Notes under the pieces: generated by a model
Seen by the model: the letters and a program-made list of their open reading frames with translations, nothing else
The model's database searches: none
Told to the model about the DNA's origin: nothing
Assembly (NCBI GenBank): GCA_015661825.1
Contig: DQVI01000244.1
Span: 1 to 64,000 of the forward strand
Reading direction: 5' to 3'
DNA from: Novosphingobium capsulatum
GTDB taxonomy: Bacteria > Pseudomonadota > Alphaproteobacteria > Sphingomonadales > Sphingomonadaceae
Length of the DNA: 64,000 bases
Shown here: positions 7,479-24,036 of the stretch, piece after piece
How positions within the stretch are numbered: position 1 is the first letter of the stretch
How the letters are laid out: every line of letters starts with the position of its first letter
Made by a program: the position numbers and the translations under genes

Positions 7479-8330
7479 AGCCTGTCGGCGGCTCGGATAA
7501 TAGAGGTGATAGCCGGGGAAAGGCGGGCACCAGTCTTCGAGTACGCGAATGAGACGGCCTTCCTCGATAGCCTCGGAAACCTGATCCTCGATGGTCACCG
7601 CAAGGCCGAGCCCGGCTTCGGCGGCATCGATGGCGAGTTCCGTGCCCGCAAAGGTAAGCTGCCCGTCGACCCGCACATTCATCACGCGTCCGTCCTTCTC
7701 GAACTCCCACGCATAGAGCCCGCCTGCGGTGGGCATGCGCCAATTGATGCACGAATGGGCGGACAGGTCGTGCGGGGTAAGCGGGATCGGGTTGCGTTCG
7801 AAATAGGAAGGCGCGCCCACGCAGGCCATGCGCAGTTGCGGCCCGACGCGCACGGCGATCATGTCGCGGTCGATCGCTTCGCCCAGGCGGATCCCGGCAT
7901 CGAAACGCTCCTCGACAATATCGACGAAGCCATTGTTGACGTTCACTTCGACATGGATGTCGGGATATTCGGGCAGGAGCGTGCGCAGGACCGGCCAGAG
8001 CACCGTGCGCGCCACATTATCGGTCACCGTCAGGCGGATATTGCCGGCAGGCTTGTCGCGCAGGCTGGTGATCTCGCTGATGCCGGTGGCGATCTGGTCG
8101 AGCGCCGGGCCGATCACCTCGACCATGCGGTCTCCCGCATCGGTGGGCGAGACCGCACGGGTCGTCCGCGTCAGCAGGCGGACACCGACCTTGGATTCCA
8201 GGCGCCGCATCGCGTGGCTGAGCGCCGATTGCGAAGTCCCCAGACGAGCCGCGGCGCGGGTGAAGCTGCGTTCCTCGGCCACGACCAGAAATGCCGCCAG
8301 CGAGGCGAGGTCGGAACGGTCATAGCTCAT
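7428..8330 (-). CDS. LysR-family transcriptional regulator
   Basis: The 300-residue protein has the LysR helix-turn-helix (residues about 5-63, FLVVAEERSFTRAAARLGTS) and a type-2 periplasmic-binding-like effector domain from about residue 90. Its 3' end overlaps the TetR gene tail to tail. It belongs to the common proteobacterial group that regulates oxidoreductases. The upstream neighbour on this strand is the guanidine/urea operon, but a hairpin separates them, so a regulatory link is not supported. Confidence 0.9.
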   Translation of the reverse strand: MSYDRSDLASLAAFLVVAEERSFTRAAARLGTSQSALSHAMRRLESKVGVRLLTRTTRAVSPTDAGDRMVEVIGPALDQIATGISEITSLRDKPAGNIRLTVTDNVARTVLWPVLRTLLPEYPDIHVEVNVNNGFVDIVEERFDAGIRLGEAIDRDMIAVRVGPQLRMACVGAPSYFERNPIPLTPHDLSAHSCINWRMPTAGGLYAWEFEKDGRVMNVRVDGQLTFAGTELAIDAAEAGLGLAVTIEDQVSEAIEEGRLIRVLEDWCPPFPGYHLYYPSRRQASPAFSLLIEALRWRGD

Positions 8331-8552: not shown

Positions 8553-9506
8553 TCAGGCCGCCGGCTTGACCAGACTTTCGGGCGCGGGCCACCAGGTCAG
8601 CGTGTGCTGGTCATGGGCGGTCGTCCACACGCCCTTGGGCGTGAAGCGCAAGGCCCCGCTGCCAGCGGGCTTTCCCTGCCGCGCGGCGACCGTCATCGTC
8701 TCGGGGGCGATCACGGCAAAGACCTGATCGTCGGTCGTGCGCAGCCAGACTTTGCCAAGTCCCGTGTCGATGTCACCCCACTTGAGGTTGGCGCCGACCT
8801 TGATCCGCCCGGCGAGCGTCACGCTGGCCGGATCGATCCGCGCGAGCGTGCCATCACCCTGTTCCTGAACCCAGACCCCATCGGCGCCGGCGGCCAGGAA
8901 ACCGGGCTGCGCGCCCAGACCCACGCGCCCGGTGACGGTGTTGGTCTTCGGGTCCACGCGCTGGAGGGTCTGCTTGTCGGCGCTCACCGCCCAGACCGCA
9001 TCGAAGCCGAAGGCCAGATACCAGGTGCCCGGATCGACCGCGACCGTGGCGGCGACCGCATTGGTCGCCGGATCGATGCGGGCGAGTGTCCCGGCAGCAT
9101 CGCTCGCCACCCAGATCGAGCCAGCCCCGGCCACGACATTGAGCTCACCCGCCGGGTTCGCGATCCCGGTGGGGATCGTGGCGACAATCTTCGCGGTCTT
9201 GAGATCGATCCGCTTGATCGCCTTGTCCTGACAATCAGCAACCCAGAGCGCGCCATCACTGACAGCCATGGCCCCGCACGGGTGGGGCGTGGCGACTTGC
9301 GCCAGCTTGCCCTTGCGCGACCAGTGCTCGACCCGCCCCCGGTTGGTGGCCCAGACGGTCTTGCCGTCAACCGCGAGGAAGTCGGCAAAGCCGGGCACCG
9401 CAATCACCTGCGGGGCCGGGGCCTCTGCGCGGGCAGGACTGGCCACGGGGGCGGCGAGTGGGGCAAGCGCGGCCACTGCCGCCAAAATCAACCGGTTGCG
9501 GACCAT
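8553..9506 (-). CDS. Exported beta-propeller (YncE/Vgb-like) protein, unknown role
   Basis: The 317-residue product starts with a signal peptide (LILAAVAALAPLAAPVASPARA, predicted cleavage after ARA at about residue 28). At least five repeats follow of the type GSIWVASDAAGTLARIDPAT, diagnostic of a YncE/virginiamycin-B-lyase-like seven-bladed propeller. The protein should act in the periplasm, probably in binding; no catalytic residue is evident. It follows the allophanate hydrolase gene by 39 bases on the same strand, and a hairpin lies just beyond it. It therefore looks like the last gene of the guanidine operon. A role in that pathway is inference from position only. Confidence 0.8.
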   Translation of the reverse strand: MVRNRLILAAVAALAPLAAPVASPARAEAPAPQVIAVPGFADFLAVDGKTVWATNRGRVEHWSRKGKLAQVATPHPCGAMAVSDGALWVADCQDKAIKRIDLKTAKIVATIPTGIANPAGELNVVAGAGSIWVASDAAGTLARIDPATNAVAATVAVDPGTWYLAFGFDAVWAVSADKQTLQRVDPKTNTVTGRVGLGAQPGFLAAGADGVWVQEQGDGTLARIDPASVTLAGRIKVGANLKWGDIDTGLGKVWLRTTDDQVFAVIAPETMTVAARQGKPAGSGALRFTPKGVWTTAHDQHTLTWWPAPESLVKPAA

Positions 9507-9545: not shown

Positions 9546-11315
9546 TCAGGCGTTTTGGGCGATGAACGCGCGCCAGCCACCCAGATCGGTGATGTCCTGG
9601 GCGCCCTCGATGGCGCGGGGTTCGGCCACGAAGCCCTTGACGCTGGTGCCATCGGCGAGGGTCACCGTACCGATGGCGAGCGGGGCAGGCACTTCGACGG
9701 TGAAGCTGCCGAATTCAGCGACGCCCATTTCATAGACCTCGACCGCGATGGCCGCGCCGTCTTCGGCATGGATCAGCGCGGGCTTGGGCGGCACGCTGTT
9801 GGCAATCGCATAGAGGCGATAAGTGGGCGCGGTCTGCGTTGCTTCCACGAACGTCGCGTTGCGCGAGGTCAGCTGCCAGTGCAGCGGCATGTCCTTGAGG
9901 TGGGCTCCGACAACGGCGAGTTTCACGGTCTGCATTTTGCCCTCCAGGTCGAGCGGGGGAACGGGGGGAAGATCGGCAATCGCCAGATATTCGTCGGCAA
10001 TGTCGAGCAGGGCACGGTCGGTATCCGCCGGGCCGATCAGGGTAATGCCAAAGCCCGTGGCATTGGCGCGCACCCCGGCCGGCACGGCCAGCGCGGCCAT
10101 GTCGAGCAGGTTCACGAAGTTGGTATAGGCGCCAAGGTTGCTGTTGAGGGCAACCGGGGCCACGGCCAGTTCGGCCACGCGATAAGTCGTGCCGGTGGTG
10201 GGGAAGGCGAAGATGTCGATCTGTTCGAACAGGCCGTCGGCATGGCGCTTGAGTTCGGCCATGCGATAGATGCCGTTCCACAGTTCGACCGCGCCCTGGG
10301 TCAGGCCGGGTTCGACCACCGTGCGGACCGTGGGATCGATGGCCTCGGGATTGCTGGCGAGGAGCCCGGCAATCGCTGCCGTGCGCTCGGCCACCCACGG
10401 GCCGCCATAGAGCAGTTGCGCGGCTTCCTTGAGCGGTTCGATGTCGATCTCGACGATCGTGCCCAGCGTGGCCAGCTTTTCGAGCGCGCGATCATAGAGA
10501 TATTCGGATTCCGCGTCGCCAAAGAACACGCGCTGGTCGCGGCGGGGAACACCGATGACCTTGTGGCCGACGGGGCGGTTTGCCAAGGGCTTGGACCAGG
10601 CATCGGCGACGTCGAACCCGGCCACCACACCATCGACGAGCCGCGCATCGGCGGTGTCGGACGTGAAGACCGAGATGCAGTCGAGCGAACGGCAGGCCGG
10701 AACCAGCCCTTGCGTGCTCCAGCGGCCCTTGGTGGGTTTGAAACCGATCAGGTGGTTGAAGGCAGCGGGCACGCGGCCCGATCCGGCGGTGTCAGTGCCC
10801 AGCGCGAAGGCGGCAAGGCCCGCAGCGACCGCGACGGACGAGCCGGAACTCGATCCGCCGCTCACATAGGCGAGGTTGGAGGCATTGCGCGGGATGCCAT
10901 AGGGGCTGCGCGTGCCGACAAGGCCGGTGGCGAACTGGTCGAGGTTGGTCTTGCCCAGACACAGCGCACCGGCCGCCAGAAGGCGCGCAACGACCGTGGC
11001 CGAGGCTTCTGGCTCATAGGCGAAGGCCGGGCAAGCCGCCGTGGTGGCAAGGCCCGCCACGTCGATATTGTCCTTGACCGCAAAGGGCACGCCCGCGAGC
11101 GGCAGGTGTTCCCCCGCCGCCACGCGCGCGTCGATGGCGGCGGCCTGTTCGAGCAGGGCCTCGGGCGTGGGGCGCCCGATCCAGATCTGGGGCTGGATCG
11201 CGTCATAGGCCGCGATCCGTTCCAGACATTCGTGGGCCACGGCGAGCGCGGTGGTCGCGCCCGCATGGACGGCTGCCGCAATCCCTGCGACGCTCAGCCG
11301 CTCGGGCGCGCTCAT
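9546..11315 (-). CDS. atzF: Allophanate hydrolase AtzF
   Basis: The 589-residue amidase hydrolyses allophanate to ammonia and carbon dioxide. The amidase-signature triad is visible as Lys81 (GVPFAVKDN), the serine-rich loop GGSSSGSS near residues 153-160, and Ser179 in DTAGSGR. A C-terminal domain typical of AtzF follows from about residue 470. The start was set at the Met of MSAPERLSV because it overlaps the carboxylase stop (ATGA); upstream residues are a shadow of that gene. It performs the last step of urea- or guanidine-derived nitrogen release. Confidence 0.94.
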   Translation of the reverse strand: MSAPERLSVAGIAAAVHAGATTALAVAHECLERIAAYDAIQPQIWIGRPTPEALLEQAAAIDARVAAGEHLPLAGVPFAVKDNIDVAGLATTAACPAFAYEPEASATVVARLLAAGALCLGKTNLDQFATGLVGTRSPYGIPRNASNLAYVSGGSSSGSSVAVAAGLAAFALGTDTAGSGRVPAAFNHLIGFKPTKGRWSTQGLVPACRSLDCISVFTSDTADARLVDGVVAGFDVADAWSKPLANRPVGHKVIGVPRRDQRVFFGDAESEYLYDRALEKLATLGTIVEIDIEPLKEAAQLLYGGPWVAERTAAIAGLLASNPEAIDPTVRTVVEPGLTQGAVELWNGIYRMAELKRHADGLFEQIDIFAFPTTGTTYRVAELAVAPVALNSNLGAYTNFVNLLDMAALAVPAGVRANATGFGITLIGPADTDRALLDIADEYLAIADLPPVPPLDLEGKMQTVKLAVVGAHLKDMPLHWQLTSRNATFVEATQTAPTYRLYAIANSVPPKPALIHAEDGAAIAVEVYEMGVAEFGSFTVEVPAPLAIGTVTLADGTSVKGFVAEPRAIEGAQDITDLGGWRAFIAQNA

Positions 11316-14300
11316 GCATGCCTCCGCAGGGCGAGCATCGGCGCGCCGGGCTGGAGGGCCTGCTTTTCTTCCATGTAGAGCGCGGCCACGGTGCCGCTGC
11401 CGGGGCTTTCGACCGGGCATTCCATCTTCATCGCTTCGAGCACGGCAATGGTATCCCCGGCTTTCACGTCGTCGCCTTCGGCCACGAGCAGTTTCCAAAC
11501 GCTTCCGCCGAACGGCGCTTCGACCAGATCGGCGCCCTCGGGCAGTTCGATGGTGCTGGCCGAGGGGGCATCGGCATCGGCCAGATCCGTCACCCGGTCG
11601 AACTCGCCCTTGCGTTGCCAGTCGGCGCGTTCCTCGTCGAAGGCGGCCTTCCGGCGGGCCTCGAATTCGGCAATGCCTTCCGCGTTTTCAGCCAGATAGG
11701 CGCGATAGTCGGCAAGACGGAACTCGGACTGCTCGATCCTGATCGAACGCCGCCCGGTCGGGAAATCGCGGCGCCATTCGACCAGTTCCTCGGCACTGAC
11801 CGGGTAGAAGCGGATCTGGTCGAAGAACCGCAGCAGCCAGGGCTTGCCCTCGATGAAGGCATCGGTCTGGCGGTGCGAATTCCACACCTGAATGGTCCGC
11901 CCGAACAACTGGTAGCCGCCGGGGCCTTCCATGCCATAGATGCACATATAGGCCCCGCCGATGCCCACCACGTTGGGCGGGGTCCAGGTGCGGGCCGGGT
12001 TGTACTTGGTGGTGACCAGACGGTGACGCGGATCGACCGGCGTGGCAACCGGCGCGCCCAGATAGACATCGCCCAGACCCATGACGAGGTAATTGGCCTC
12101 GAAGATCAGGTTCTCGACCGCGGCTGCATCGGGCAAGCCGTTGATACGGCGGATGAACTCGATGTTGTCCGGGCACCAGGGCGCGTCGTCGCGCACCGCG
12201 CTCATGTACTTTTCGATCGTCTCGATCGTCGCCGGATCGCGCCAGCTCAGGGGCAGGTAGACGATGCGCGAGGGGATCGCGAAGTCTTCCAGATCGCCCA
12301 AACGCTCCTCGGCCTCGATCAGCGCGGCAAGGGCGGCGGCCTGATCAAGATGGATGCCGTCGAAGTGAAGCTGAAGCGAACGGATGCCGGGCACGATGTC
12401 GATCACACCGGGCAGGGCCAGACGCTCCATCTCGGTCATCAGGGCATGGACGCGAATGCGCAACTCGATGTCGAGCACGATCGGGCCATATTCGACCAGA
12501 ATGTTGCGGTCGCCCTGCTGGCGATAGACCGTGCGCGGACGGCCCGCCGTCTCGGGAATTTCCGCGAGGACGGGGTTGAGCGTCTCCACCTCGCGCGCGG
12601 GGGTACTGACCGGGACTTCGCCGCTGGAAAGCAGGGTCTGCTGGGCCAGATCGGCGGCCTTGGCATCGGCGATGTTGACCGGCACGAAGCGCAGGCGATC
12701 GCCCGGCACGAGCTGACCGATCTTCCACTGGTCGGCGGCGATCACCACGAACGGGCAGACAAAACCGCCCAGCGAAGGCCCGTCGGGGCCCAGAATGATC
12801 GGCATGTCGCCGGTGAAGTCCACCGCGCCGATGGCGTAGGGGTTGTCGTGGATGTTCGAGGGGTGCAGGCCCGCCTCGCCCCCGTCCGAGCGCGTCCACT
12901 TGGGCTTGGGGCCAATCAGGCGCACGCCGGTGCGGTTGGAGTTGTAGTGGACCTGCCAGTCGGCATTGACGACCATCGCGATGTCTTCGGGCGTGAAGAA
13001 ATCGGGCGCGCCATGCGGGCCATAGAGGACGCGCAAGGTCCATTCAGTGGGCAGCGCGGGAAGGCCGGTGGATTCCAGCGGAGCTTCGAGCGGTTCATCG
13101 CCCAGATGGAGGACATCGCCCGCCACCAGACGGCGCGCGGCATGGCCACCGAACTGGCCGAGCTCGAAGGTCGCGCGGCTGCCGAGATAGGGCGCGATGT
13201 CGAGCCCGCCGGCAAACAGGATATAGCCGCGCATACCCCCGCCACGGGTACGGCCCATGGTGAGCGTCTGGCCGGCGGCCACATCGACAGCCACGCCGCG
13301 TTCGACCGGGACGCCATCGAGCGTGGCGCCAAAATCGGCCCCGGTCAGGCAGATACGCGCCGAAGACGAGAACGCGAGCGAAGGTCCGGTGTGGGTCACT
13401 TCAAGCCCGGCGGTGCCTTCGGCATTGCCCAGCAGGCGGTTGCCGAGGCGGAACGACTGGTCGTCCATCGGGCCCGAAGGGGGCACGCCCACGTCCCACA
13501 GGTGCTGGCGACCGGGCCAGTCCTGCACGGTGGTGGCCGTGCCGCCGCTGATCACGCGGAAGCTGCGCGGGGCAAAGGCGATGGTGTCGAGCACGCGGGT
13601 CGAGACTTCGCCGCTGGTGAAGGCGTCCGAGCGCACGACCGAGCGCAGCCAGCGCAAGTTGGTCTCGATCCCGTCGACGCGCGCCTTGTCGAGCGCGGCC
13701 TGCATGGCCAGCACGGCTTCCTCGCGCGTGGGGGCGTGAACGATCAGCTTGGCGAGCATGGGATCGTACCAGGCGCTGACCGTGCTGCCCGCCATGACCC
13801 AGGTTTCGGTGCGGATGTCGGCGGGGAATTCGACCGCCGTCAGCGTGCCCGAAGTCGGGCGATAGTCTTGCGCGGGGTCTTCGGCGTAGAGGCGGACCTG
13901 CACCGAATGGCCGCTCGGGCGGGTCGGGGCAGTATCGAGGAAGGCAAAGTCGCCCGCGCCGCCCCGGATCATCCACTCGACCAGATCGACGCCCATGACC
14001 TCTTCGGTCACGCCATGTTCGACCTGAAGTCGGGTGTTCATTTCGAGGAAAAAGAATTCCTCACGGTCGGAATCGTAGAGAAATTCGACCGTGCCCGCCG
14101 AGCGATAGCGCGCCGCCTGACCCAGATTGATCGCCGCGGCGTAGAGATCCTGACGGACCTTTTCGGGCAGCAGCGGGGCAGGGGCCTCTTCGACGACCTT
14201 CTGGTTGCGGCGCTGGAGCGAGCAGTCACGCTCGCCAAGGGCGACGATACGCCCCTCGCCATCGCCGAAGATCTGCACTTCGACGTGGCGCGCGCGGCGC

Positions 14301-14908
14301 ACATAGCGTTCGAGGAAGACCCCGGCGTCGCCGAAGTTGCTCTTGCCCAGACGCGCGACCGTGGCAAAGCCCTCGCGCACGGCGTCTGCGTCCTCGCACA
14401 CGCGCATGCCGATGCCGCCGCCGCCAGCGGTGGCCTTGAGCATGATCGGGTAGCCGATGCGGTCTGCGGCCTCAAGCGCGGCCGCCTCGTCGGTGAGAAG
14501 GTCGCTGCCGGGCGCCAGGGGAACGCCATGGGCAGCGGCCAGTTCGCGGGCGCTGTGCTTGAGGCCGAAGGTGCGGATATTCTCGGGCGTGGGGCCGATG
14601 AAGACGATCCCCTCCGCCGCGCAGGCATCTGCAAATTCGACGTTTTCAGCCAGAAAGCCATAGCCGGGGTGGATCGCCCCGGCGCCGGTCTGCCTCGCTG
14701 CCGCGATGATCGCGGGAATGTTGAGATAGCTCTCGGTGGCGCGGGCGCCCCCGATGCACACGGCCTCGTCGGCCATGGCGACATGGAGCGAGCCCTCGTC
14801 GGCCTCGGAATAGACCGCGACCGAGCGCAGCCCCATGGTCTTGAGCGTGCGGATGATCCGGGTGGCAATCGCGCCCCGGTTGGCGATGAGGACGGTATCG
14901 AAGCTCAT
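11312..14908 (-). CDS. Urea carboxylase-family biotin enzyme, probably guanidine carboxylase
   Basis: The 1198-residue cytoplasmic enzyme has a biotin carboxylase module (residues 1 to about 450, start MSFDTVLIANRG), allophanate-hydrolase-like carboxyltransferase subdomains (about 480-1050) and a C-terminal biotinyl domain with the attachment site EAMKMECP. Classical annotation is urea carboxylase. Members encoded with two DUF1989 proteins have been shown in other bacteria to carboxylate guanidine. Here both DUF1989 genes and a matching ABC importer are present, so guanidine is the more likely substrate. Start and stop overlap both neighbours by four bases, giving tight coupling. The substrate-discriminating residue was not checked. 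Confidence 0.9.
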   Translation of the reverse strand: MSFDTVLIANRGAIATRIIRTLKTMGLRSVAVYSEADEGSLHVAMADEAVCIGGARATESYLNIPAIIAAARQTGAGAIHPGYGFLAENVEFADACAAEGIVFIGPTPENIRTFGLKHSARELAAAHGVPLAPGSDLLTDEAAALEAADRIGYPIMLKATAGGGGIGMRVCEDADAVREGFATVARLGKSNFGDAGVFLERYVRRARHVEVQIFGDGEGRIVALGERDCSLQRRNQKVVEEAPAPLLPEKVRQDLYAAAINLGQAARYRSAGTVEFLYDSDREEFFFLEMNTRLQVEHGVTEEVMGVDLVEWMIRGGAGDFAFLDTAPTRPSGHSVQVRLYAEDPAQDYRPTSGTLTAVEFPADIRTETWVMAGSTVSAWYDPMLAKLIVHAPTREEAVLAMQAALDKARVDGIETNLRWLRSVVRSDAFTSGEVSTRVLDTIAFAPRSFRVISGGTATTVQDWPGRQHLWDVGVPPSGPMDDQSFRLGNRLLGNAEGTAGLEVTHTGPSLAFSSSARICLTGADFGATLDGVPVERGVAVDVAAGQTLTMGRTRGGGMRGYILFAGGLDIAPYLGSRATFELGQFGGHAARRLVAGDVLHLGDEPLEAPLESTGLPALPTEWTLRVLYGPHGAPDFFTPEDIAMVVNADWQVHYNSNRTGVRLIGPKPKWTRSDGGEAGLHPSNIHDNPYAIGAVDFTGDMPIILGPDGPSLGGFVCPFVVIAADQWKIGQLVPGDRLRFVPVNIADAKAADLAQQTLLSSGEVPVSTPAREVETLNPVLAEIPETAGRPRTVYRQQGDRNILVEYGPIVLDIELRIRVHALMTEMERLALPGVIDIVPGIRSLQLHFDGIHLDQAAALAALIEAEERLGDLEDFAIPSRIVYLPLSWRDPATIETIEKYMSAVRDDAPWCPDNIEFIRRINGLPDAAAVENLIFEANYLVMGLGDVYLGAPVATPVDPRHRLVTTKYNPARTWTPPNVVGIGGAYMCIYGMEGPGGYQLFGRTIQVWNSHRQTDAFIEGKPWLLRFFDQIRFYPVSAEELVEWRRDFPTGRRSIRIEQSEFRLADYRAYLAENAEGIAEFEARRKAAFDEERADWQRKGEFDRVTDLADADAPSASTIELPEGADLVEAPFGGSVWKLLVAEGDDVKAGDTIAVLEAMKMECPVESPGSGTVAALYMEEKQALQPGAPMLALRRHA

Positions 14909-15540
14909 GCGGTCACGATCATGCGAACGGGGGTGGGGTTGAAGGCGTTGCACGGATTGTTGATCTGCGGGCAGTTGGAGACCACCACGATCACGTCCAT
15001 CTCGGCCTTCAGGTCGACCGTGAGGCCCGGCGCGGAAATGCCGTCGACGATGCCCAGCGAACCATCGGCTTCGACCGGCACGTTCATGAAGAAGTTGATG
15101 TTCGAGACGATGTCGCGCTTGCCGCGCCCTTCCAGAAGGTTGGCTTCGAGGAAGTTTTCGACACAGGCATGTTGCGACTTGGTGTGATGACCATAGCGCA
15201 AGGTATTGGATTCACATGAGCAAGCGCCGCCGATGGTGTCGTGGTATTCGACCGCGCTGCCCGCGATGGTCATCAGCGGGCGGCCTTCGTTCGACATCAG
15301 CACGGTGCCCTTGCGCAGGAACAGGTTGCCCTGCGCCGCCACAGTATCCTGCGCGCTGTAGCGTTCGGCATCATCAGCCGCCGAATAGATCAGGAAGTCG
15401 ACCGCCTGGTTGCCTTCAAGGTCGACGATGCGCAGCGTCTGCCCGGCGGCGACATGGTGAAGCCAGGGCGCGCGGGCAGGCACCACTTCGTCGTGGACCA
15501 CGGCGCCCGAAAGACCGGCAAGATGAATATCTGCGTTCAT
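14905..15540 (-). CDS. Carboxyguanidine deiminase subunit (urea amidolyase-associated protein 2, DUF1989)
   Basis: The 211-residue DUF1989 protein carries the family segments EGNQAVDFLIY, GACSCESN near the middle, NINFFMNVPV and MDVIVVVSNCPQINNPCN. This type (UAAP2/CgdB) forms, with its partner, a metal-dependent deiminase converting carboxyguanidine to allophanate and ammonia. The start MNADIHLAG is preferred because AGGTAGGGG precedes it and it leaves a 19-base gap after the partner gene; an extension to 15585 would overlap that gene. The stop overlaps the carboxylase start. Confidence 0.9.
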   Translation of the reverse strand: MNADIHLAGLSGAVVHDEVVPARAPWLHHVAAGQTLRIVDLEGNQAVDFLIYSAADDAERYSAQDTVAAQGNLFLRKGTVLMSNEGRPLMTIAGSAVEYHDTIGGACSCESNTLRYGHHTKSQHACVENFLEANLLEGRGKRDIVSNINFFMNVPVEADGSLGIVDGISAPGLTVDLKAEMDVIVVVSNCPQINNPCNAFNPTPVRMIVTA

Positions 15541-15559
15541 GGAAATGGCCCCTACCTTT

Positions 15560-16423
15560 TCAGCGGCGGAAGTAGTCTTCGACATTGAGGAAGGCGCGCA
15601 GGCCTTCGGGCGTCGCGTTGCGCACGGGATCGTCCTGCCCGGTCACGGCCCCGCGCCATGCGGTGGCGCGCAGCGGGGTCACGGTATAGGCGGGGCGCGG
15701 ATCGAGGACGTGGGGCACGTTGGCGATCACCACGATCACGTCCATCTCCGCGCGCAGCACCACTTCGCGGCCCGGTTCATAAGGGCCGACCAGCGGGGTG
15801 ATCGTGCCGTCGGTTTCGATCCGGGTGCCCTTGAACAGGTTGATGCACGGGTGCACGTCGCGGCGACCCAGCCCATGCTTGGCCGCGCCCAGCAGAAAAC
15901 GGTCCCGGCCATTGGGAAAGGCGCCGCTGTTGCGCCCTTCGCCATATTTGGCGAGGTTGGTGGCCGCGTTCGAGGTGCCCGCAAAACAGTCGTGGGTGGC
16001 AGCGCCATCTTCGACCAGGCTCATCAGCACGCGGCCCATGTCCGAAAGCAGGAGCTTGCCCGCGCCCAGATAGGCGTTCCACTGGACCTTGACGGTATCG
16101 GCCACGTTGAGGCGCTCGGTCGGCATGGCCGCGTTGAACACCTGAAGACCGGCGCAGGCATCGCCCTTGACGTCGATCAGGCGCAGGCGGGTGCCGCGCG
16201 CAAGGACGCGGGTGGCATAGCCCCCTGCCGCGATGGTTTCCTCCCAGACGAGATCTTCGGTAGCCACGCCCTCGGGCAGGTCGGTGGCGACCGGGGGCAG
16301 CACGGGCATCGATTCCACCACGGTGCCCCCCATGGCGCGGGCATGATCGCGCGCGGCCAGCGGGTTGGCCAGCGGGCTGCCGGTGGGGTTTGCAGCGGGA
16401 GTTTGGGTGAGCGTGTCGGTCAT
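15560..16423 (-). CDS. Carboxyguanidine deiminase subunit (urea amidolyase-associated protein 1, DUF1989)
   Basis: The 287-residue DUF1989 protein is paralogous to the next gene product. Parallel segments are VKGDACAGLQVFNA, THDCFAGTSNAATN, DVHPCINLFKG and MDVIVVIANVPHVLDPR. It corresponds to UAAP1/CgdA, the other half of the carboxyguanidine deiminase. The Cys and His residues in these segments probably bind the metal. The start overlaps the stop of the NikR-like regulator gene by four bases. Confidence 0.9.
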   Translation of the reverse strand: MTDTLTQTPAANPTGSPLANPLAARDHARAMGGTVVESMPVLPPVATDLPEGVATEDLVWEETIAAGGYATRVLARGTRLRLIDVKGDACAGLQVFNAAMPTERLNVADTVKVQWNAYLGAGKLLLSDMGRVLMSLVEDGAATHDCFAGTSNAATNLAKYGEGRNSGAFPNGRDRFLLGAAKHGLGRRDVHPCINLFKGTRIETDGTITPLVGPYEPGREVVLRAEMDVIVVIANVPHVLDPRPAYTVTPLRATAWRGAVTGQDDPVRNATPEGLRAFLNVEDYFRR

Positions 16424-16899
16424 GCAGCCGCTCCATCAGAGGCGTCCTTGGCCGCATCCTGAACATAGATGGGCGGCAGCAAGGCGGTGGTGGTGACAAG
16501 TTCGAGTTGCTGGACGCCGCGCACACGGCGCAGGGCGTCGGAAAGATCCTTGAGGCGGACAGCCGGGCCCTGCACGAGCAGGACTTCGAGCGACTGGTCG
16601 TCTTCCAGAAACACATGCTGGGACGAGATCACTTCGATCAGGTAGTCGGCCTGGGTCTGCGCGAGCTGGTGGCGGACCCGTCCGCGATCACCGCGATAGA
16701 CGAGGGTGATCGTGCCTGCGAGCATCTCGTCGGGGCGGGTGAGCGCCTCGTGCTCGGCCAGGGCATGGCGGATCAGTTCGGCAATCAGCTGCGAGCGCGA
16801 GGGAAGCTGGCGCTCCTCGACCATCATGTCGAGCTTGCGGAAGAGGTCCGCGGGCAGGCTCATGCTGAGCCTGGCAAGGCTGGCAGGTTCGCTGCTCAT
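16420..16899 (-). CDS. NikR-like ribbon-helix-helix regulator lacking most nickel ligands
   Basis: The 159-residue protein has an N-terminal ribbon-helix-helix (residues about 9-50, RLSMSLPADLFRKLD then SRSQLIAELIRHALAEHE) and a C-terminal ACT-like domain as in NikR (AGTITLVYRGDRG, SLEVLLVQGP, GVQQLEL). In my alignment to Escherichia coli NikR only His95 (H87 in E. coli) is kept. The other nickel ligands H76, H89 and C95 correspond to Ala84, Phe97 and Ser103. It probably regulates this operon in response to something other than nickel, perhaps a pathway compound. It lies inside the operon, coupled to the deiminase gene. Confidence 0.88.
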   Translation of the reverse strand: MSSEPASLARLSMSLPADLFRKLDMMVEERQLPSRSQLIAELIRHALAEHEALTRPDEMLAGTITLVYRGDRGRVRHQLAQTQADYLIEVISSQHVFLEDDQSLEVLLVQGPAVRLKDLSDALRRVRGVQQLELVTTTALLPPIYVQDAAKDASDGAAA

Positions 16900-16913: not shown

Positions 16914-17711
16914 TTAGTGCGCTACGGCTTGGGGGTGGGCCTGTTCGGGGACAGGCTCCTTTTCGGGCGCGGCATCTTCGGCCTCATCTCGCTGGCGCAA
17001 GGGCAGGTCGTAGACCACCTTGGCGCCAAAGCGGTGGGGGGCGTGGGGATCGTGGCGCACCTTGTCGATGGCCAGCACGCGGGTTCCGAGCGAGAACGCC
17101 TCGCGCAAGTCGTGGGTGACCATCATGATGGTCAGCCCGTGCTCGCGCCACAGGCGGCGCACGAGGGCGTGCATGTCGGCCCTGATGCCCGGATCGAGCG
17201 CGCCGAAGGGCTCGTCGAGCAGGAGGATGCGCGGGCGCTTGATCAGCGCCTGGGCAAAGGCGAGGCGCTGCTGCATGCCCCCTGAGAGTTCCGCCGGATA
17301 CTGGTCGAGGCTGTGGCCAAGGCCCACCGCTTCGAGCATCGCGACCGCTTCCTCGCGGGCGGCGCGGCGGGCCGAGCCGAACAGGCGTGCGGTGAGCGGC
17401 GCCTTGGCGCATTCGATGCCGAACATCGTGTTCTGAAGCGCGGTCAGGTGCGGAAACACCGAATAGCGCTGGAACACAACGCCCCGGTCAGGCCCGCATT
17501 CGCTGGCCAGAGGGGCACCATCGAGCAGGATGCGCCCGCGCGAGGGGGCCTGCTGGCCGAGCACGAGCCGCAAAAGGCTGCTCTTGCCCGCGCCCGAAGG
17601 GCCCACGATGGAAACGATCGACTTCTCGGCAATGTCGAGGTTGATCTTTTCGAGGATGATCCGGTCGCCGAATTCGACCCAGATGTCGCGGAAGGAGAGG
17701 AGCGCGGTCAA
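16914..17711 (-). CDS. ABC transporter ATP-binding protein of the guanidine/urea-carboxylase cluster
   Basis: The 265-residue ATPase of the SsuB/TauB type has Walker A GPSGAGKSS, signature LSGGMQQRLAFAQAL and Walker B ILLLDEPFGALD. The start is a TTG overlapping the permease stop, with GGAG seven bases upstream. No ATG fits, and the longer frame reads through the permease as a shadow. It powers import with the permease and lipoprotein encoded just upstream. Confidence 0.93.
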   Translation of the reverse strand: MTALLSFRDIWVEFGDRIILEKINLDIAEKSIVSIVGPSGAGKSSLLRLVLGQQAPSRGRILLDGAPLASECGPDRGVVFQRYSVFPHLTALQNTMFGIECAKAPLTARLFGSARRAAREEAVAMLEAVGLGHSLDQYPAELSGGMQQRLAFAQALIKRPRILLLDEPFGALDPGIRADMHALVRRLWREHGLTIMMVTHDLREAFSLGTRVLAIDKVRHDPHAPHRFGAKVVYDLPLRQRDEAEDAAPEKEPVPEQAHPQAVAH

Positions 17712-18523
17712 TGGCTTGCTCCATGGGCCCAGGGGAAGAGACGCTTGCTGGCCTGATCGAGCGCCACGTCCATGACGATGGCCAGAAGCGCGATCCAGGC
17801 CACGTAAGGGATGATCACGTCCATCGAGAGGTAGCGGCGGACCAGAAAGATGCGATAGCCAAGCCCGGTGTCCGAAGCGATCGCCTCGGCCGAGATCAGG
17901 AAGACCCAGGCCGGGCCCAGCGCCAGACGCACCGCCTGGAGCAGCCGCGGCATGGCCTGGGGCAGGGCAACGCGGATCATGATCTGCCAACTGCTCGCGC
18001 CCAAGGTCTGGGCCTTGATGATCTGCTCGCGCGGGAGTGCGGCGACATGGTCGGTGATGTCGCGGATCATGACCGGGGCGATGCCCACCACGATCAGCGC
18101 CACTTTGGCCGTCTCGCCAAGCCCGAGCGCGATGAACAGGATCGGCAGCAGCGCGATCGGCGGGATCACCGCGATGCCCGTCACCAGCGGCCCGAACGTG
18201 GCGCGCACCGGCGGCAGCACGCCCAGCACGAGGCCAACCAGCAGGGCCATGATCGTGGCAATGCCCAGCCCCATGCCCAGACGTTCGAGGCTGGCGAGGG
18301 TATCGGTCCAGAACAGGAACGTACCCGACAGCGGATCGCGCTGCGCGACGAGTGCGGCCATGCCCTGGATCATCGCGCCGGGCAGCGGCAGGATCTTGTC
18401 CGAAGGATTGGCGGCATGACGCTGGGCCGCCATGATCAGGTAGCCGATCACCAGGATCAGGATCGGAATGGCCCCGGCGACCAGACGGTCGTTGCGGCGC
18501 ATGTTACGGTTGACCCACCGCAT
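17708..18523 (-). CDS. ABC transporter permease of the guanidine/urea-carboxylase cluster
   Basis: The 271-residue inner-membrane protein has about six transmembrane segments (first at LVAGAIPILILVIGYLIM) and the EAA loop EQIIKAQTLGASSWQIMI for ATPase docking. It belongs to the nitrate/sulfonate/taurine permease family. The ATG at 18523 with GAGGG upstream is preferred over a TTG at 18556. Its stop overlaps the TTG start of the ATPase. Confidence 0.92.
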   Translation of the reverse strand: MRWVNRNMRRNDRLVAGAIPILILVIGYLIMAAQRHAANPSDKILPLPGAMIQGMAALVAQRDPLSGTFLFWTDTLASLERLGMGLGIATIMALLVGLVLGVLPPVRATFGPLVTGIAVIPPIALLPILFIALGLGETAKVALIVVGIAPVMIRDITDHVAALPREQIIKAQTLGASSWQIMIRVALPQAMPRLLQAVRLALGPAWVFLISAEAIASDTGLGYRIFLVRRYLSMDVIIPYVAWIALLAIVMDVALDQASKRLFPWAHGASH

Positions 18524-18577
18524 GGTGCGTGTTCCCTCGATCAGACTTGCGGACAAACTTGGCCCCGAAAGGGCGGC

Positions 18578-19672
18578 TCAGAGCTTCCCGTCAGCCGCCA
18601 TTTTCATGAAGCTGTCATCGAAGCGCAGCGTGACATGCTGTGCATCGCCCAGCGTCTTGCCTCCCGGAAAGCTCATGCCGACCGCGTCCGCCGACGAGGC
18701 GCCCTTGAACAGCCCCTTCGAGAAGCTGAAATCGCGCACGCGGGTCATCGTGGTGACCAGCGAGGGCGAGCCGGTGGCGGCAACCGCTGCCTTGGGATCG
18801 TCGTAGAGGAAGGTCGTCTTGAGCTGGTTGTCGAAGACCTCGGGCGTGGTGCCGGCCAGCTTGGCCATGGCGGCGCGCGCGGCCTTGCCTTGCGCATCCT
18901 GACGCTTCATCAGGGCCATGGTTTCATACCAGATGCCCGCCAGCGCCTTGCCCAGATCGGGATTGGCCTTGAGCGTGGCGGTGTCGACCGTCAGCAGATC
19001 GAGGATCTCGCCGGGCACCTGGGCCGAGCTGAACACCTGGTTGACCCCTTGCTGGCCCCGCATGACCGAAAGCTGCGGGTTCCAGGCGACAGCGGCCTGC
19101 GCATCGGGGCTGGAGAACGCGCCCACGATGTCGGCGTCCGACGTATTCACCGTCTTGACATCGCTGAGCGAAAGGCCCGCCGTGCCCAGCGCCCGTGCCA
19201 GAAGATAGTGCGAGACCGACAGCTCGACGAGGTAAACCTGCTTGCCCTTGAGCGCCGCAATCGAATTGGCGCCCTTGAGCAGCACGCCGTCGTTGCCGTT
19301 TGAATAGTCGCCCATGATGATCGCGCTGGTGTCCTTGCCGGCAGCAGCCGGAATGGTCAGCGCGTCCATGTTGGTGACGGTCACGCCGTCAAACTTGCCG
19401 GCGTTGAACTGGTTCACCGATTCAACATAGTCGTTCACCTGAACGATGTTGATCTTGATGTGGTACTTGTCGGCCCATTTCTTGACGATACCGGCCTGCT
19501 GGGCATAGGGCCAGGGCATCCAGCCGGCATAGATCGACCAGCCGATGTTGAATTCGGTCTTCTTCTGGGCCTGTCCGGCGGGAGCCGGCGAGCAGCCTGC
19601 CAGCATTGCGGTTCCGGCCAGCATGCCTGCCATCAGGGCAACCTTGCCCGCCTCACCGATCTTCTTGATCAT
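18578..19672 (-). CDS. Substrate-binding lipoprotein of the urea-carboxylase-region ABC transporter
   Basis: The 364-residue product has a lipoprotein signal ending in LAGC (Cys27), then a NitT/TauT-like binding protein (FNIGWSIYAGWMPWPYAQQAGI, NQFNAGKFDGVTVTNMDAL). This matches the family found specifically next to urea/guanidine carboxylase genes. It should capture the substrate, probably guanidine, at the periplasmic face. The start has AGGGAG seven bases upstream. It is the first gene of the nine-gene operon; a promoter with an overlapping dyad lies about 55 bases further upstream. Confidence 0.92.
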   Translation of the reverse strand: MIKKIGEAGKVALMAGMLAGTAMLAGCSPAPAGQAQKKTEFNIGWSIYAGWMPWPYAQQAGIVKKWADKYHIKINIVQVNDYVESVNQFNAGKFDGVTVTNMDALTIPAAAGKDTSAIIMGDYSNGNDGVLLKGANSIAALKGKQVYLVELSVSHYLLARALGTAGLSLSDVKTVNTSDADIVGAFSSPDAQAAVAWNPQLSVMRGQQGVNQVFSSAQVPGEILDLLTVDTATLKANPDLGKALAGIWYETMALMKRQDAQGKAARAAMAKLAGTTPEVFDNQLKTTFLYDDPKAAVAATGSPSLVTTMTRVRDFSFSKGLFKGASSADAVGMSFPGGKTLGDAQHVTLRFDDSFMKMAADGKL

Positions 19673-19732
19673 GATTCGCTCCCTGTTCGCAACCGCACCA
19701 TCGCTGCAATGCGCCTCCTTGTCCATGCAAAA

Positions 19733-19759
19733 ATATTACAAGTTCTGCATTTGGTAATA
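19733..19759 (-). promoter_or_regulatory. Candidate promoter and operator dyad of the guanidine operon
   Basis: On the minus strand TTATTA and TAATAT are separated by 16 bases and resemble -35 and -10 boxes. The inverted repeat TATTAC-N14-GTAATA (19734-19739 and 19754-19759) overlaps both boxes, which is the arrangement expected for a repressor. Half-site length and about 20-bp spacing resemble operators of NikR-type proteins. The tract is AT-rich in a GC-rich region. Nearby ATGCA/TGCAT copies at 19725, 19746 and 19763 add symmetry. Confidence 0.5.
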
Positions 19760-20429
19760 ATAATGCATCTGCAACAGGAGAGCGCCCGCGCCACGCCGGA
19801 AAGACGCCGCCTTGTGATCACTGATGGTGGGTTTTCTGGTCGCAAGTCCGCGCCTGACGCAGGCATGCTGCGGGGCGGCATCTTGCCGTTCTGCTATCGA
19901 TGGTGCGGCCGGATCGCGAATCAAGCAAGGGGCTTTTGACGGCGCGCGCGAGGGCTTCCTGTGGCAATCCTGCATCGCGTGGGGCGCGGGCGTTGGCTCT
20001 GTCCGGCCCCTGTTTCAGGCAAAAAATGCCTGTTTTTCGCGCCGCACCCACTCGGACGTCATACTGAATGGCTCATGAATTATTACGCTTGACCAATTAT
20101 GTAATATCGGTACCGTGGTGGGTGTCGATGTTCAGGGCGACACCAAAACACGAATGAGGAATCCGGCGCAGATGGCCCGTCGCAAGGCGGGGCATCTCGG
20201 GCGGAACAAAGTAGAGTTTGACGCAATAACGATGATGCGAACAGTGCGTGATGCACTTTTGCAAACGGGTACTTGCGCCTTTCTCTCGGGATATTTGCTC
20301 CTGACTTGACGGAGCAGGTCGTGTCCAGGTGTCGAACGGCAGATCAAAAGGGGGCTGCCGGCCTTTCGGACAAAGCGCGCAGACGTGTCTGCGTACTGGA
20401 ATGCAATTGACTGGCGAGGTTCGCAAAGA

Positions 20430-20455
20430 GCCCGCCCTGACCCGACTGGGCGGGC
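20430..20455 (+). promoter_or_regulatory. Leader hairpin upstream of the TonB receptor
   Basis: GCCCGCC pairs with GGCGGGC across a 12-base loop, about 60 bases before the proposed GTG start. There is no T run after it, so it is more likely a leader structure than a terminator. Its function is unknown. Confidence 0.35.
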
Positions 20456-20516
20456 CCGTGTGAAAACAAAGAGGATGTCTTCGGCAACTGGCTTTTCGAG
20501 CGAGGCGAGGGCTGAC

Positions 20517-22958
20517 GTGACCAAACGAACTTTCCGTACCACACTCTATTGCGCGACCATGATGATGGGCTGCGCTTCCGTCCCGGCTTTGGCCCAGACC
20601 GCTCCCGATGCTGGCGCTCCCGACGCGAGCGCCGCCGATCCGGGCGGGGAGGGCAACGCCATCGTCGTGACGGCCACCCGCCGCGCCACCACCCTGATGG
20701 ACACGCCGATCAACATCAGCGCGATCAGTCCGTCCGAACTGGCCCGCCAGCGCATCGACGACGTCAAGGGGCTGGCCGCCTTCACGCCGGGCATGACGGT
20801 GGTCGACACCGGGCCGGGGTCGAGCGGTAACATCGTTCTGCGCGGCGTCAATTCGAGCGATTCTTCGGTGAATGGCGCCAATGCCAACTCGGCGGTGGGT
20901 GTCTACCTGGGTGAAGTGCCGCTCTACGTCGACTTCAAGCTGCTCGACATTGATCACGTCGAAGTTCTTCAGGGGCCGCAGGGCACCCTCTATGGCCTCG
21001 GCACGCTGGCCGGTGCGGTGCGCTACATGCCCAGCCGCCCCGATGCCGAGCACTATTCGGTCGATCTCCACGGGCGCTGGTTCGGGGAATCGCACAGCCG
21101 TTCGGCGGGGGTGAATGCCGATGGCACGGTGAACATCCCGATCATCAAGGACCACATCGCGCTGCGCAGCACGGTGGGCTATTATGACAATCCGGGCTTC
21201 ATCGATTACAACTACCTGCTGCGCCAGCCGGGCGTGTCCGACCCGCAGCCCGGTCGCAGCGCCACGGGCGAGGGCGCCTCGTTCGGCACGCCCGCCCAGC
21301 AGGCCGCCAATTTCTATTCCAAGAAGGACGTGAACTACGAGCACACCTTCACCACGCGCAACCAGTTGCTGCTTGAGGTAAATCCCGACCTCAAGGCCTA
21401 CTTCACCTGGGCGCACCAGATCACCAAGACCGGCGGCGCGCAGGCCAATGGCGCGGGCGTGATGGGCACTGGCCGCTACGAGGCACCGTGGCGCTATCTG
21501 GAACCCACCAGCCGCAAGTCGGACCTCTATTCAGCCGAAGTCTTCGCCAACCTTGGCCACGTGGCGCAGCTGGTTTCGACCACTGCCTTCACCACGCAGA
21601 CCAACCACACCCAGCGCGACAACACCGACCTTCTGCTCGACCTCGACTATGGCTATGAAGCCTTCCCCGAGTTCTCGTCGTACAACCGCTCGACGGTCAA
21701 GTATCACCAGTTCAACGAGGAACTGCGCCTGGTTTCGACCCATGGCGGGCCGTTCAGCTGGGTGCTCGGCGGCTTCTACAACAACATGCGCTATGGCTCG
21801 CAGTATCGCGAATATGTGCCCGGCTATGCGGACTGGGCCGGTATCTACCGTCCCGACAATCTGGAATACATGTCGTTCGTCAACACCCGCATGAAGGAAA
21901 AGGCGGTCTACGGCGAAGGCACGTTCCACATCACCAAGGCCTGGCAGGTCACCGGCGGCATCCGCTACTATTCGTACAACGCCTTTGCCGAAGGCGGCAC
22001 CGACACGCCGCTGTTGTCCGGTGGCCAGCGTCGCACGCCCTATCCGCTGGTCGTGTTCGATCCGAGCCGTATCCGCAGCGGCTCGACCGGCTACAACGGT
22101 GTGGTGTGGAAGGCCAACACCTCGTACAAGTTCAGCCCGAACCTGATGGCCTACTTTACCTACAGCACCGGCTATCGCCCCGGCAACGTGAACCGCGTGG
22201 CGCCTTGCGTGCTGCCGCTGCCACCCGGCCAGAACGTCTGCGCCATGCCCAACGAAATGTCCTACACCCCGGACAAGACCCGCAACGCAGAACTGGGTAT
22301 TCGCGGCTCGCTGTTCAACAAGCGCCTCGACTTCACCCTGAGCGGGTATCACATCAACTGGGACGATCTTCAGATCCAGAGCACGACCGTCAACGGTGCG
22401 GTGGGCATTACCGTCAACGCGGGCAAGGCCATTTCGCAGGGCATCGACTTCTCGGCCCAGTTCAAGGTCACGGATCGTCTCGCCCTGCGCGGCAACTATT
22501 CGTATACCGACGCGCATCTAACCGAGGATTCTCCCAACCTCGTCGTCAGCCAGGGCGTCCCCTATGATGCCTTCTCCGGCGACCGCCTGCCCGGTTCAAC
22601 CAGGAACTCGGGCGCGGTGGGGGCGACCTACACCTATCCGCTGGCCAATGGCCACGACGTCGAGGCAAGCTGGACGACGGTCTTTACCGGCGACATCTAC
22701 TCGCGCGTGGGCTTGCGCGGCAACGGCGAGGTCATCCCCGCCTACAACACCAGCCGCGCGTCGCTCACCTACCATGGCGGCACGTTCGACGTGAGCGTCT
22801 ATGCCGACAACATCTTCGACAAGTACGCAGTCACGGCCGTCGAGAACGACAAGTCCTCGTACAACCAGGTCCGCACCGATGTCGTCGAGCGTTACTATGC
22901 CTATGGCGTGCTGACGCCGCGCCGGGTCGGCATCGACCTGCGCTTCCACTACAAGTAA
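20517..22958 (+). CDS. TonB-dependent outer-membrane receptor
   Basis: The product has about 813 residues from the GTG at 20517, which has GAGGG five bases upstream and gives a clean signal peptide (CASVPALAQ). An ATG at 20475 would add 14 residues. The plug domain is recognised by IVVTATRRATTLMDTPINIS and DHVEVLQGPQGTLYGLGTLAGAVRY; the barrel ends in the outer-membrane signature RRVGIDLRFHYK. It is one of the large sphingomonad receptor groups, with an unknown ligand. The next genes encode a hydroxylase-family membrane protein and a sulfotransferase. A strong terminator directly follows this gene. Confidence 0.9.
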   Translation: MTKRTFRTTLYCATMMMGCASVPALAQTAPDAGAPDASAADPGGEGNAIVVTATRRATTLMDTPINISAISPSELARQRIDDVKGLAAFTPGMTVVDTGPGSSGNIVLRGVNSSDSSVNGANANSAVGVYLGEVPLYVDFKLLDIDHVEVLQGPQGTLYGLGTLAGAVRYMPSRPDAEHYSVDLHGRWFGESHSRSAGVNADGTVNIPIIKDHIALRSTVGYYDNPGFIDYNYLLRQPGVSDPQPGRSATGEGASFGTPAQQAANFYSKKDVNYEHTFTTRNQLLLEVNPDLKAYFTWAHQITKTGGAQANGAGVMGTGRYEAPWRYLEPTSRKSDLYSAEVFANLGHVAQLVSTTAFTTQTNHTQRDNTDLLLDLDYGYEAFPEFSSYNRSTVKYHQFNEELRLVSTHGGPFSWVLGGFYNNMRYGSQYREYVPGYADWAGIYRPDNLEYMSFVNTRMKEKAVYGEGTFHITKAWQVTGGIRYYSYNAFAEGGTDTPLLSGGQRRTPYPLVVFDPSRIRSGSTGYNGVVWKANTSYKFSPNLMAYFTYSTGYRPGNVNRVAPCVLPLPPGQNVCAMPNEMSYTPDKTRNAELGIRGSLFNKRLDFTLSGYHINWDDLQIQSTTVNGAVGITVNAGKAISQGIDFSAQFKVTDRLALRGNYSYTDAHLTEDSPNLVVSQGVPYDAFSGDRLPGSTRNSGAVGATYTYPLANGHDVEASWTTVFTGDIYSRVGLRGNGEVIPAYNTSRASLTYHGGTFDVSVYADNIFDKYAVTAVENDKSSYNQVRTDVVERYYAYGVLTPRRVGIDLRFHYK

Positions 22959-23169: not shown

Positions 23170-24036
23170 ATGAAACAGCGTCTCATCGGGTTGATCCCGC
23201 CTGCCACCCTGCTCGCCGTCGTCCTGTTCTGGGGCTATGCACCCCGGTCGGTGGTCGACAACCCGTGGACGCTCACGATCCTTTCGACCGTGGTCTCGGC
23301 CTTCATTTTGGGCCTCGAATGGCTGTTCGAGCGCCACGCGGGCTGGCGCATGAACTGGCGGGAATTTGCCACCGACGTCTTCTATGTCGTGCTGGGCACC
23401 ATCGTGATCTCGCGCGCGACTGAATTCTTTGCCGAAGCGCCGCTCAAGGCGGCCAAGGCCCATCTGGGGCTGGCAACGCCCTGGCTCGAACACCTGCCGT
23501 TTCTGGCCCAGGTCGGCATCATTTTCGCGCTGTTCGAGTTTGGCCAGTACTGGATGCATCGCGGCATGCACAACTGGACCCCGTTGTGGCTGACCCATGC
23601 CCCCCATCACCACATCACCCAGCTCAACGCACTCAAGGGCTATGTCGGCAATCCGCTCGAACTGTTCCTGATCAGCCTGGGGATTATCGCCCTGCTCGAT
23701 TTCACGCCGGCAGCGATCCTGTGTGCGGCGAGTGTCGGTCAGGTCGTCTCGGGCTTTGCCCATGCCAATGTGCGCGCCGATCCGCCCCCGTTCTATTCGT
23801 TCTTCCTCACCACCATACGCCATCACAGCCTGCACCATTCGACCGACTATGAAAGCACCCGGTGCAACTATGCCAACAGCCTGATCCTGATCGACCGGGT
23901 GTTCGGCACGTTCCGCGATGGCGAGGCCATCGTGGTCGGTCAGGACGACTTGCGCCGTCTGTCGATCCGCGAGCAGTTCCTGTTCCCGTTCGTTCCTGTT
24001 ATCGAGGCCATGCGCAAGCGCCGCCACCACGTCTGA
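23170..24036 (+). CDS. Sterol desaturase / fatty acid hydroxylase family membrane protein
   Basis: The 288-residue integral membrane protein has about four hydrophobic segments. Histidine clusters typical of di-iron membrane hydroxylases are HRGMHNW, HAPHHHI and HHSLHHSTDYE. The family hydroxylates or desaturates lipids such as fatty acids, sterols or carotenoids; the actual substrate is unknown. It lies between a TonB receptor and a sulfotransferase on the same strand, separated from the receptor gene by a terminator. The ribosome site is weak (GAACGAAG). Confidence 0.88.
   Translation: MKQRLIGLIPPATLLAVVLFWGYAPRSVVDNPWTLTILSTVVSAFILGLEWLFERHAGWRMNWREFATDVFYVVLGTIVISRATEFFAEAPLKAAKAHLGLATPWLEHLPFLAQVGIIFALFEFGQYWMHRGMHNWTPLWLTHAPHHHITQLNALKGYVGNPLELFLISLGIIALLDFTPAAILCAASVGQVVSGFAHANVRADPPPFYSFFLTTIRHHSLHHSTDYESTRCNYANSLILIDRVFGTFRDGEAIVVGQDDLRRLSIREQFLFPFVPVIEAMRKRRHHV

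Follow-up and report, generated by a model that had tools for sequence, protein, structure and literature searches.

Among described regulators, NikR (PDB 2bj1, 1q5v, 2ca9) joins an RHH domain to a NikR_C domain, holds nickel through three His and one Cys (the HHHC ligand set) and serves nickel genes. It acts at an inverted-repeat operator, which the part of PMC545781 available to us predicts, for the deltaproteobacterial protein, as GTGTTAC-N13/14-GTAACAC. Guanidine use, on the other hand, is associated with RNA aptamers, the Guanidine-I and -II riboswitches, which go with a gene set of importer, cgdAB, carboxylase and allophanate hydrolase. CgdA and CgdB are placed in the guanidine pathway by the accessible sections of PMC12508155, and those of PMC12186494 state that an Asp, as against an Asn, marks guanidine carboxylases.

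Here, we describe a protein that has the architecture of NikR and sits among the genes otherwise associated with these riboswitches. We refer to it as NikRL; it was found in a 64,000-nucleotide stretch of DNA from Novosphingobium capsulatum, which was analyzed as a whole and is called the window below. The original prediction knew of no such regulator for this pathway, and open-licence PMC papers likewise yielded no description of a NikR-type regulator of the guanidine pathway or of a NikR with altered nickel ligands; nor does the portion of PMC2667541 at hand describe a guanidine regulator of the NikRL type.

A NikR-like gene in a predicted guanidine operon

The genes and sites to which we refer are as follows.

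8553..9506, minus strand: YncE/Vgb-like beta-propeller protein, a frequent operon neighbour
9546..11324, minus strand: allophanate hydrolase; the listed ORF extends upstream to 11498
11312..14953, minus strand: urea-carboxylase-family enzyme, guanidine type, with Asp712 opposite Asn1330 of the 5i8i urea amidolyase chain
14905..15585, minus strand: DUF1989 / UAAP2 (TIGR03424), putative carboxyguanidine deiminase subunit B
15560..16423, minus strand: DUF1989 / UAAP1 (TIGR03425), putative carboxyguanidine deiminase subunit A
16420..16899, minus strand: NikRL, NikR-like RHH and NikR_C protein of 159 aa, nickel positions A84, H95, F97 and S103
16914..17990, minus strand: ABC ATPase (listed ORF); homology begins at about residue 97 and the true start is probably near 17702
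17708..18556, minus strand: ABC permease, from profile matches
18578..19726, minus strand: substrate-binding protein of a urea/guanidine-type ABC importer, TIGR03427 above cut-off; listed ORF, whose real start may be further in
19734..19759, no strand assigned: predicted operator TATTAC-N14-GTAATA, exact copy, upstream of the importer operon
20081..20106, no strand assigned: second predicted operator, exact, on the side of the divergent TonB receptor, with a -35-like TTGAC in its spacer
20385..22958, plus strand: TonB-dependent receptor, divergent, probably of the same regulon

The minus-strand operon runs from the substrate-binding protein through permease, ATPase, NikRL, the two DUF1989 genes (UAAP1, then UAAP2) and carboxylase to allophanate hydrolase. 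The NikRL gene starts 14 bp past the stop of the ABC ATPase gene and shares 4 bp with the beginning of the first DUF1989 gene, and its position between importer and deiminase genes is as originally predicted, with the ATPase on one side and the DUF1989 pair on the other. From what is known of the pathway, we take the DUF1989 pair to be the carboxyguanidine deiminase CgdA/CgdB. With importer, CgdA, CgdB, Asp-type carboxylase and allophanate hydrolase all present, the locus can be classed, on its sequence, as a guanidine carboxylase operon. The carboxylase was of the Asp type in all 44 loci in which the motif could be read, out of 47 given (five loci with a LysR-type regulator included; L053, L054 and L201 gave no motif). 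Profile searches recognized no nickel gene in the operon of the window.

Several neighbouring genes recur as well. The TonB-receptor gene is followed by a gene of the fatty-acid-hydroxylase (sterol desaturase) family (23170-24036), and this pair is found again near other guanidine operons. Guanidine itself would be an odd substrate for an outer-membrane receptor, and a larger guanidino compound may be the real one. A beta-propeller gene lies near most guanidine operons, and in locus L080 (3540-5505) genes for a metallo-beta-lactamase-fold protein and a YncE/Vgb-like beta-propeller protein lie between importer and TonB receptor; both types of gene perhaps belong to the NikRL regulon.

NikRL resembles NikR but has lost its nickel site

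Pfam finds RHH_1 at residues 10-48 of the 159-residue protein (E 4.3e-05) and a full NikR_C domain at residues 61-137 (E 9.4e-20), the domain order that had been read from the sequence at the outset. The top PDB matches of an AF2 model are NikR structures, and against isolated NikR C-terminal domains the model reaches TMt 0.80-0.91, mostly at 1.5-1.6 A; the model is moderate overall (pLDDT 68.6, pTM 0.51), with five blocks of the C-terminal domain above 80. Domains and modelled fold together indicate that NikRL belongs to the NikR family, as far as a model of moderate confidence allows. It is not a canonical NikR, an identity that we rejected because the ligands are replaced and the cut-offs of the NCBI NikR equivalog models are missed (scores of 93.5 against 105, 57.1 against 83 and 55.5 against 175.45).

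In the phmmer alignment to the NikR of 2bj1 (E 9.4e-24), the ligands His, His, His and Cys pair with A84, H95, F97 and S103, which confirms that three of the four nickel ligands are replaced while His95 remains. The same holds across type-I NikRL proteins, compared in 135 alignment rows (39 from a first set and 96 from the 79 named loci L082-L160) that are not independent, with several species in both sets and 17 named loci holding two NikRL copies. The HHHC set, or any other combination of His and Cys at all four positions, occurs in none of these rows. Position 84 is never His; H95 and S103 are kept in 135/135 rows; and position 97 is Phe in 124 and Val in 11. The RHH residues are likewise strongly conserved. 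Since the substitutions are conserved over all 135 rows, the loss of the nickel site is not an assembly slip.

The paired copies lie about 3 kb apart in the 17 of 79 named loci, and L040 also carries two (7823-8299 and 11287-11745). A different NikR variant, with H, H, I or V, and S at the ligand positions and a His-rich tail, is encoded at L068:9733-10206 and L070:9522-9995, divergent from a gene that by eye resembles a TonB-type receptor, and represents a separate, partial loss of the nickel site.

NikRL occurs with the guanidine pathway

We searched 298 genomes of the same family for NikRL and for CgdB (called at E 1e-40). A NikRL match at E 0.001 was found in 42 genomes, comprising 37 with close relatives (E below 1e-50) and 5 with distant NikR-like proteins; CgdB was also found in 42. 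All 37 NikRL genomes have CgdB, and none of the 256 genomes without CgdB has NikRL (Fisher 3e-42, a value that ignores kinship). Part of this association reflects the joint inheritance of a gene and the operon that contains it. At the level of loci, NikRL lies in or beside a guanidine operon in 36 of 37 cases from other genomes (L031-L066); the remaining one, L067, is a second, stand-alone copy elsewhere in genome G138. The importer genes of L062-L066 have another arrangement and in most cases diverge from NikRL-cgdAB.

The five CgdB genomes without NikRL (L071-L075) also carry this operon, but there a LysR-type gene lies upstream of the importer gene, and its product carries HTH_1 and LysR_substrate domains in all five. 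This protein is unrelated to NikRL, but apparently fills its role; the same gene occurs in only one of the 37 NikRL loci (L063). No specific regulator other than NikRL or LysR was seen in the loci of the family. The LysR-type gene is thus a second candidate protein regulator of the guanidine pathway.

A predicted operator accompanies NikRL

Aligned regions upstream of the importer gene share a conserved TATTAC...GTAAT block, from which the predicted operator TATTAC-N14-GTAATA derives; this operator and its recurrence with NikRL at guanidine genes are new here. The window has two matches, both exact, where 0.02 would be expected at up to two mismatches. The whole genome (3.5 Mb) has three exact sites; at two mismatches the pattern gives 9 hits and a reversed control 24, and only exact or near-exact sites are therefore meaningful. 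The third exact site, L076:8158-8183 on contig 238, is flanked by genes for an ArsR-family protein and a 2Fe-2S ferredoxin.

Among 55 genomes, exact sites were found in 34 of the 37 with NikRL, in none of the 5 with the LysR-type gene and in 1 of the 13 without CgdB, while the reversed pattern gave 5 hits in 4 of the 55. The three NikRL genomes without an exact site belong to one genus and have one-mismatch sites before NikRL (L064-L066). No tested pathway gene was identified alongside the exact site in G218 or one on contig 12 of G138 (L079), and both are possibly chance matches. At up to one mismatch, the operator is present in 36/36 operon loci (L031-L066), mostly close to the gene for NikRL, the importer or the TonB receptor, in 0/5 LysR loci and not at the stand-alone copy L067. 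It is also found in 76 of the 79 named loci, and in the other three (L112, L116, L152) the contig ends 0.4-2.5 kb upstream of NikRL. The gene nearest to the 200 sites in named loci is the importer in 85 cases, NikRL in 49, the TonB receptor in 33, a beta-propeller gene in 4 and none of these in 29. Random first-order sequence modelled on 20 named loci contained no site in 402 kb.

The spacer often contains promoter-like elements. In the window and L031-L066 (37 loci), 64 of 90 sites at up to one mismatch have TTGA[CT] in the searched part of the spacer, at one offset in 63 of 65 oriented hits. Sixteen bases on, TA[CG]CGT follows in 24/65 oriented hits, mostly at receptor-side sites, and TATGAT in 5/65, mostly pointing away from the importer; overall, -10-like hexamers are mostly weak, with at most 3/6 matches in 55/65 oriented hits. 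The importer-side site of the window (19734-19759) is without TTGA[CT] in its spacer, and at several importer-side sites the element points away from the importer. For part of the sites, it is thus likely that a promoter overlaps the operator, and with it that the operator serves repression. Repression by NikRL is what the placement of the operator and the behaviour of NikR would suggest.

Relatives outside the family

Class-wide (385 genomes, 11 matches) and phylum-wide (398 genomes, 36 matches) samples returned mostly other NikR proteins. Sixteen loci were taken from them, giving 15 usable rows (none from L204), of which 11 have the HHHC ligands. In L198, from another family of the same class, the positions are G, H, F and S, and the locus has a guanidine operon with an exact operator. 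The Asticcacaulis locus L216 has both features as well.

A second branch, in which the positions read Y or R, H, H and T, comprises L199, L200 and L201. In the family of L199, which belongs to another class, 18 of 150 genomes match at 1e-20. The 17 loci that we compared (16 fetched, plus L199; not counting G1044, with 35% identity, or a second match in G1030) all have the operator, 13 of them exactly and 4 with one mismatch; CgdA and CgdB adjoin the gene in 15, and the other two, from one genus, have an importer and a GlnT-like gene. Around the genome of L201, 4 of 199 genomes match; CgdA is present in 4/4 loci and the operator in 3/4, L251 having none at up to one mismatch. L200 has no operator at that threshold and no Cgd gene in its 20 kb, its neighbours being creatininase-family and GlnT-like genes only. 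Many second-branch operons (among L199-L201 and L234-L252) carry creatininase-family and type III glutamate-ammonia-ligase-like genes between importer and cgdAB.

Two Acinetobacter loci (L214, L215) encode a more distant relative, with Q, H, Q and V or I. Both have two DUF1989 genes, carboxylase and allophanate hydrolase, and each has at least one exact and one one-mismatch operator site. Alongside a hypothetical gene, L214 further encodes an SMR exporter and a 2OG-Fe(II) oxygenase, which by their description are reminiscent of the methylguanidine genes in the available part of PMC12508155.

The operator thus tracks relatives that are only 33-44% identical to NikRL; for those at guanidine operons of the other class and of Acinetobacter, identity is 33-40%. 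The old metal positions vary by branch (A/H/F/S; R or Y/H/H/T; Q/H/Q/V or I), and conservation reveals no ligand pocket common to the three.

Origin from NikR

We built a tree of 34 proteins with the four ligand columns removed. All 19 NikRL rows, from type I, the second branch and Acinetobacter, fall on one side of a branch supported at 98/98; the 13 rows labelled canonical NikR are HHHC by definition of that label. The NikR of 2bj1 is placed next to the NikRL rows with weak support (85/47), and without it the NikRL branch is supported at 100/94. Like the predicted NikR operator, TATTAC-N14-GTAATA is a spaced inverted repeat. In the second branch and in Acinetobacter its half-site extends to GTATTAC, which is one base off the NikR half-site GTGTTAC, as predicted in the accessible part of PMC545781. 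This likeness suggests that the DNA site was kept close to that of NikR when the metal site was lost. NikR serves nickel genes, whereas the neighbours of NikRL and most of its predicted operator sites are those of guanidine-pathway genes.

Proposed function and alternative explanations

What we observe is a lost nickel site, an operon, a regulator that occurs together with the pathway, and an operator that occurs together with the regulator. Context in several bacterial groups and the conserved operator support the idea, raised in the original prediction, of a NikR relative that has lost its nickel site and serves the guanidine pathway. We consider that NikRL probably descends from NikR, has ceased to use the NikR nickel site and represses guanidine catabolism; operator binding, repression and ligand are the inferred parts of this reading. 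It very likely regulates the guanidine operon through the predicted operator, and there is good reason to expect that it does so independently of the NikR nickel site.

In the mechanism that we propose, NikRL would act as an RHH repressor of the genes for guanidine uptake and the carboxylase pathway and, in many relatives, of its own gene. A NikR-like tetramer, as the fold suggests, would bind TATTAC-N14-GTAATA and so block transcription; at many sites, a -35-like hexamer lies within this sequence. Guanidine or a product of the pathway (carboxyguanidine, allophanate) would accumulate and bind the regulatory domain where the metal site used to be, or close by; the ligand-bound repressor would then release the DNA, so that importer, deiminase, carboxylase, hydrolase and outer-membrane receptor could be made. 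That the ligand is guanidine or a pathway intermediate seems a slightly better than even proposition, and that it is guanidine itself a somewhat weaker one, which we put forward tentatively.

The nature of the signal is also where the guanidine riboswitches bear on the argument. No riboswitch reached the gathering score in the window or in L062, L064 and L071-L075, and Guanidine-I was found in none of the 42 CgdB genomes of the family (this search of more than 40 genomes used stricter filters; Bacillus subtilis served as control and was positive); a riboswitch-controlled operon in the window was rejected on these grounds. Elsewhere, Guanidine-I or -II aptamers occur in both Acinetobacter loci, in L201 and in 5 of another 7 second-branch loci that were scanned, the exceptions being L234 and L241; none was found in L199, L200 or L216. 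The Acinetobacter locus L215 has, in this order, an exact operator (2771-2796), a Guanidine-I aptamer (2832-2927) and CgdA, and in L242 the operator (3262-3287) precedes a Guanidine-I aptamer (3305-3412). Where riboswitches share the operon (Acinetobacter and some of the second branch), a second guanidine sensor would be partly redundant, which makes guanidine a less convincing ligand in those relatives; in sphingomonads, where riboswitches are apparently absent, the argument for it is stronger. NikRL might accordingly control the same operon through the same operator and yet report nitrogen status or another general cue, with guanidine specificity coming from the riboswitches where these are present. 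The type III glutamate-ammonia-ligase-like gene in many operons of the riboswitch groups would fit such a role, but within the family of the window, Guanidine-I was found in none of the CgdB genomes and the loci show no specific regulator besides NikRL or LysR, and we hold this explanation to be unlikely.

Considerably less probable is that NikRL still senses nickel or another metal through H95 and other residues, switching on a nickel-free nitrogen route when nickel is scarce. The invariant H95, the two His kept in the second branch and the NikR fold of the model would agree with this, but three of the four ligands are gone, the operon contains no recognized nickel gene, and urease-alpha has no match in the genome itself. 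It was matched in 10 of 43 genomes, 6 of them over the cut-off and each over at most 75 of 121 positions. Because urease-alpha has no match in the genome itself and only partial ones elsewhere, there is no clear nickel route to trade against; a nickel/urease trade-off was rejected, and nickel control of NikRL is unlikely. That NikRL is a degenerate passenger while another factor binds the palindrome, which could be proposed because binding by NikRL is a prediction, is highly improbable given the strong conservation over 135 rows (RHH residues included), the lack of sites at up to one mismatch where LysR replaces NikRL, and a site that tracks relatives of 33-44% identity and resembles the NikR operator predicted in the part of PMC545781 at hand.

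We thus return to NikRL as a NikR-derived regulator of guanidine use. In its widest form, which we offer as a tentative reading, it would be a protein guanidine sensor, with an ACT-like metal-sensing domain turned guanidinium receptor, that controls guanidine catabolism by binding DNA in Alpha- and Gammaproteobacteria and one family of another class; it would replace the riboswitch in sphingomonads and work in tandem with it elsewhere. NikRL is a candidate protein regulator with a defined operator, so that a single protein and a single 26-bp DNA suffice to test the idea. If true, this would be a clear example of how a family of metal sensors was recruited to a metabolic pathway with its DNA site nearly unchanged, and the predicted regulon (TonB receptor, importer and pathway enzymes) points to further guanidine-related genes.
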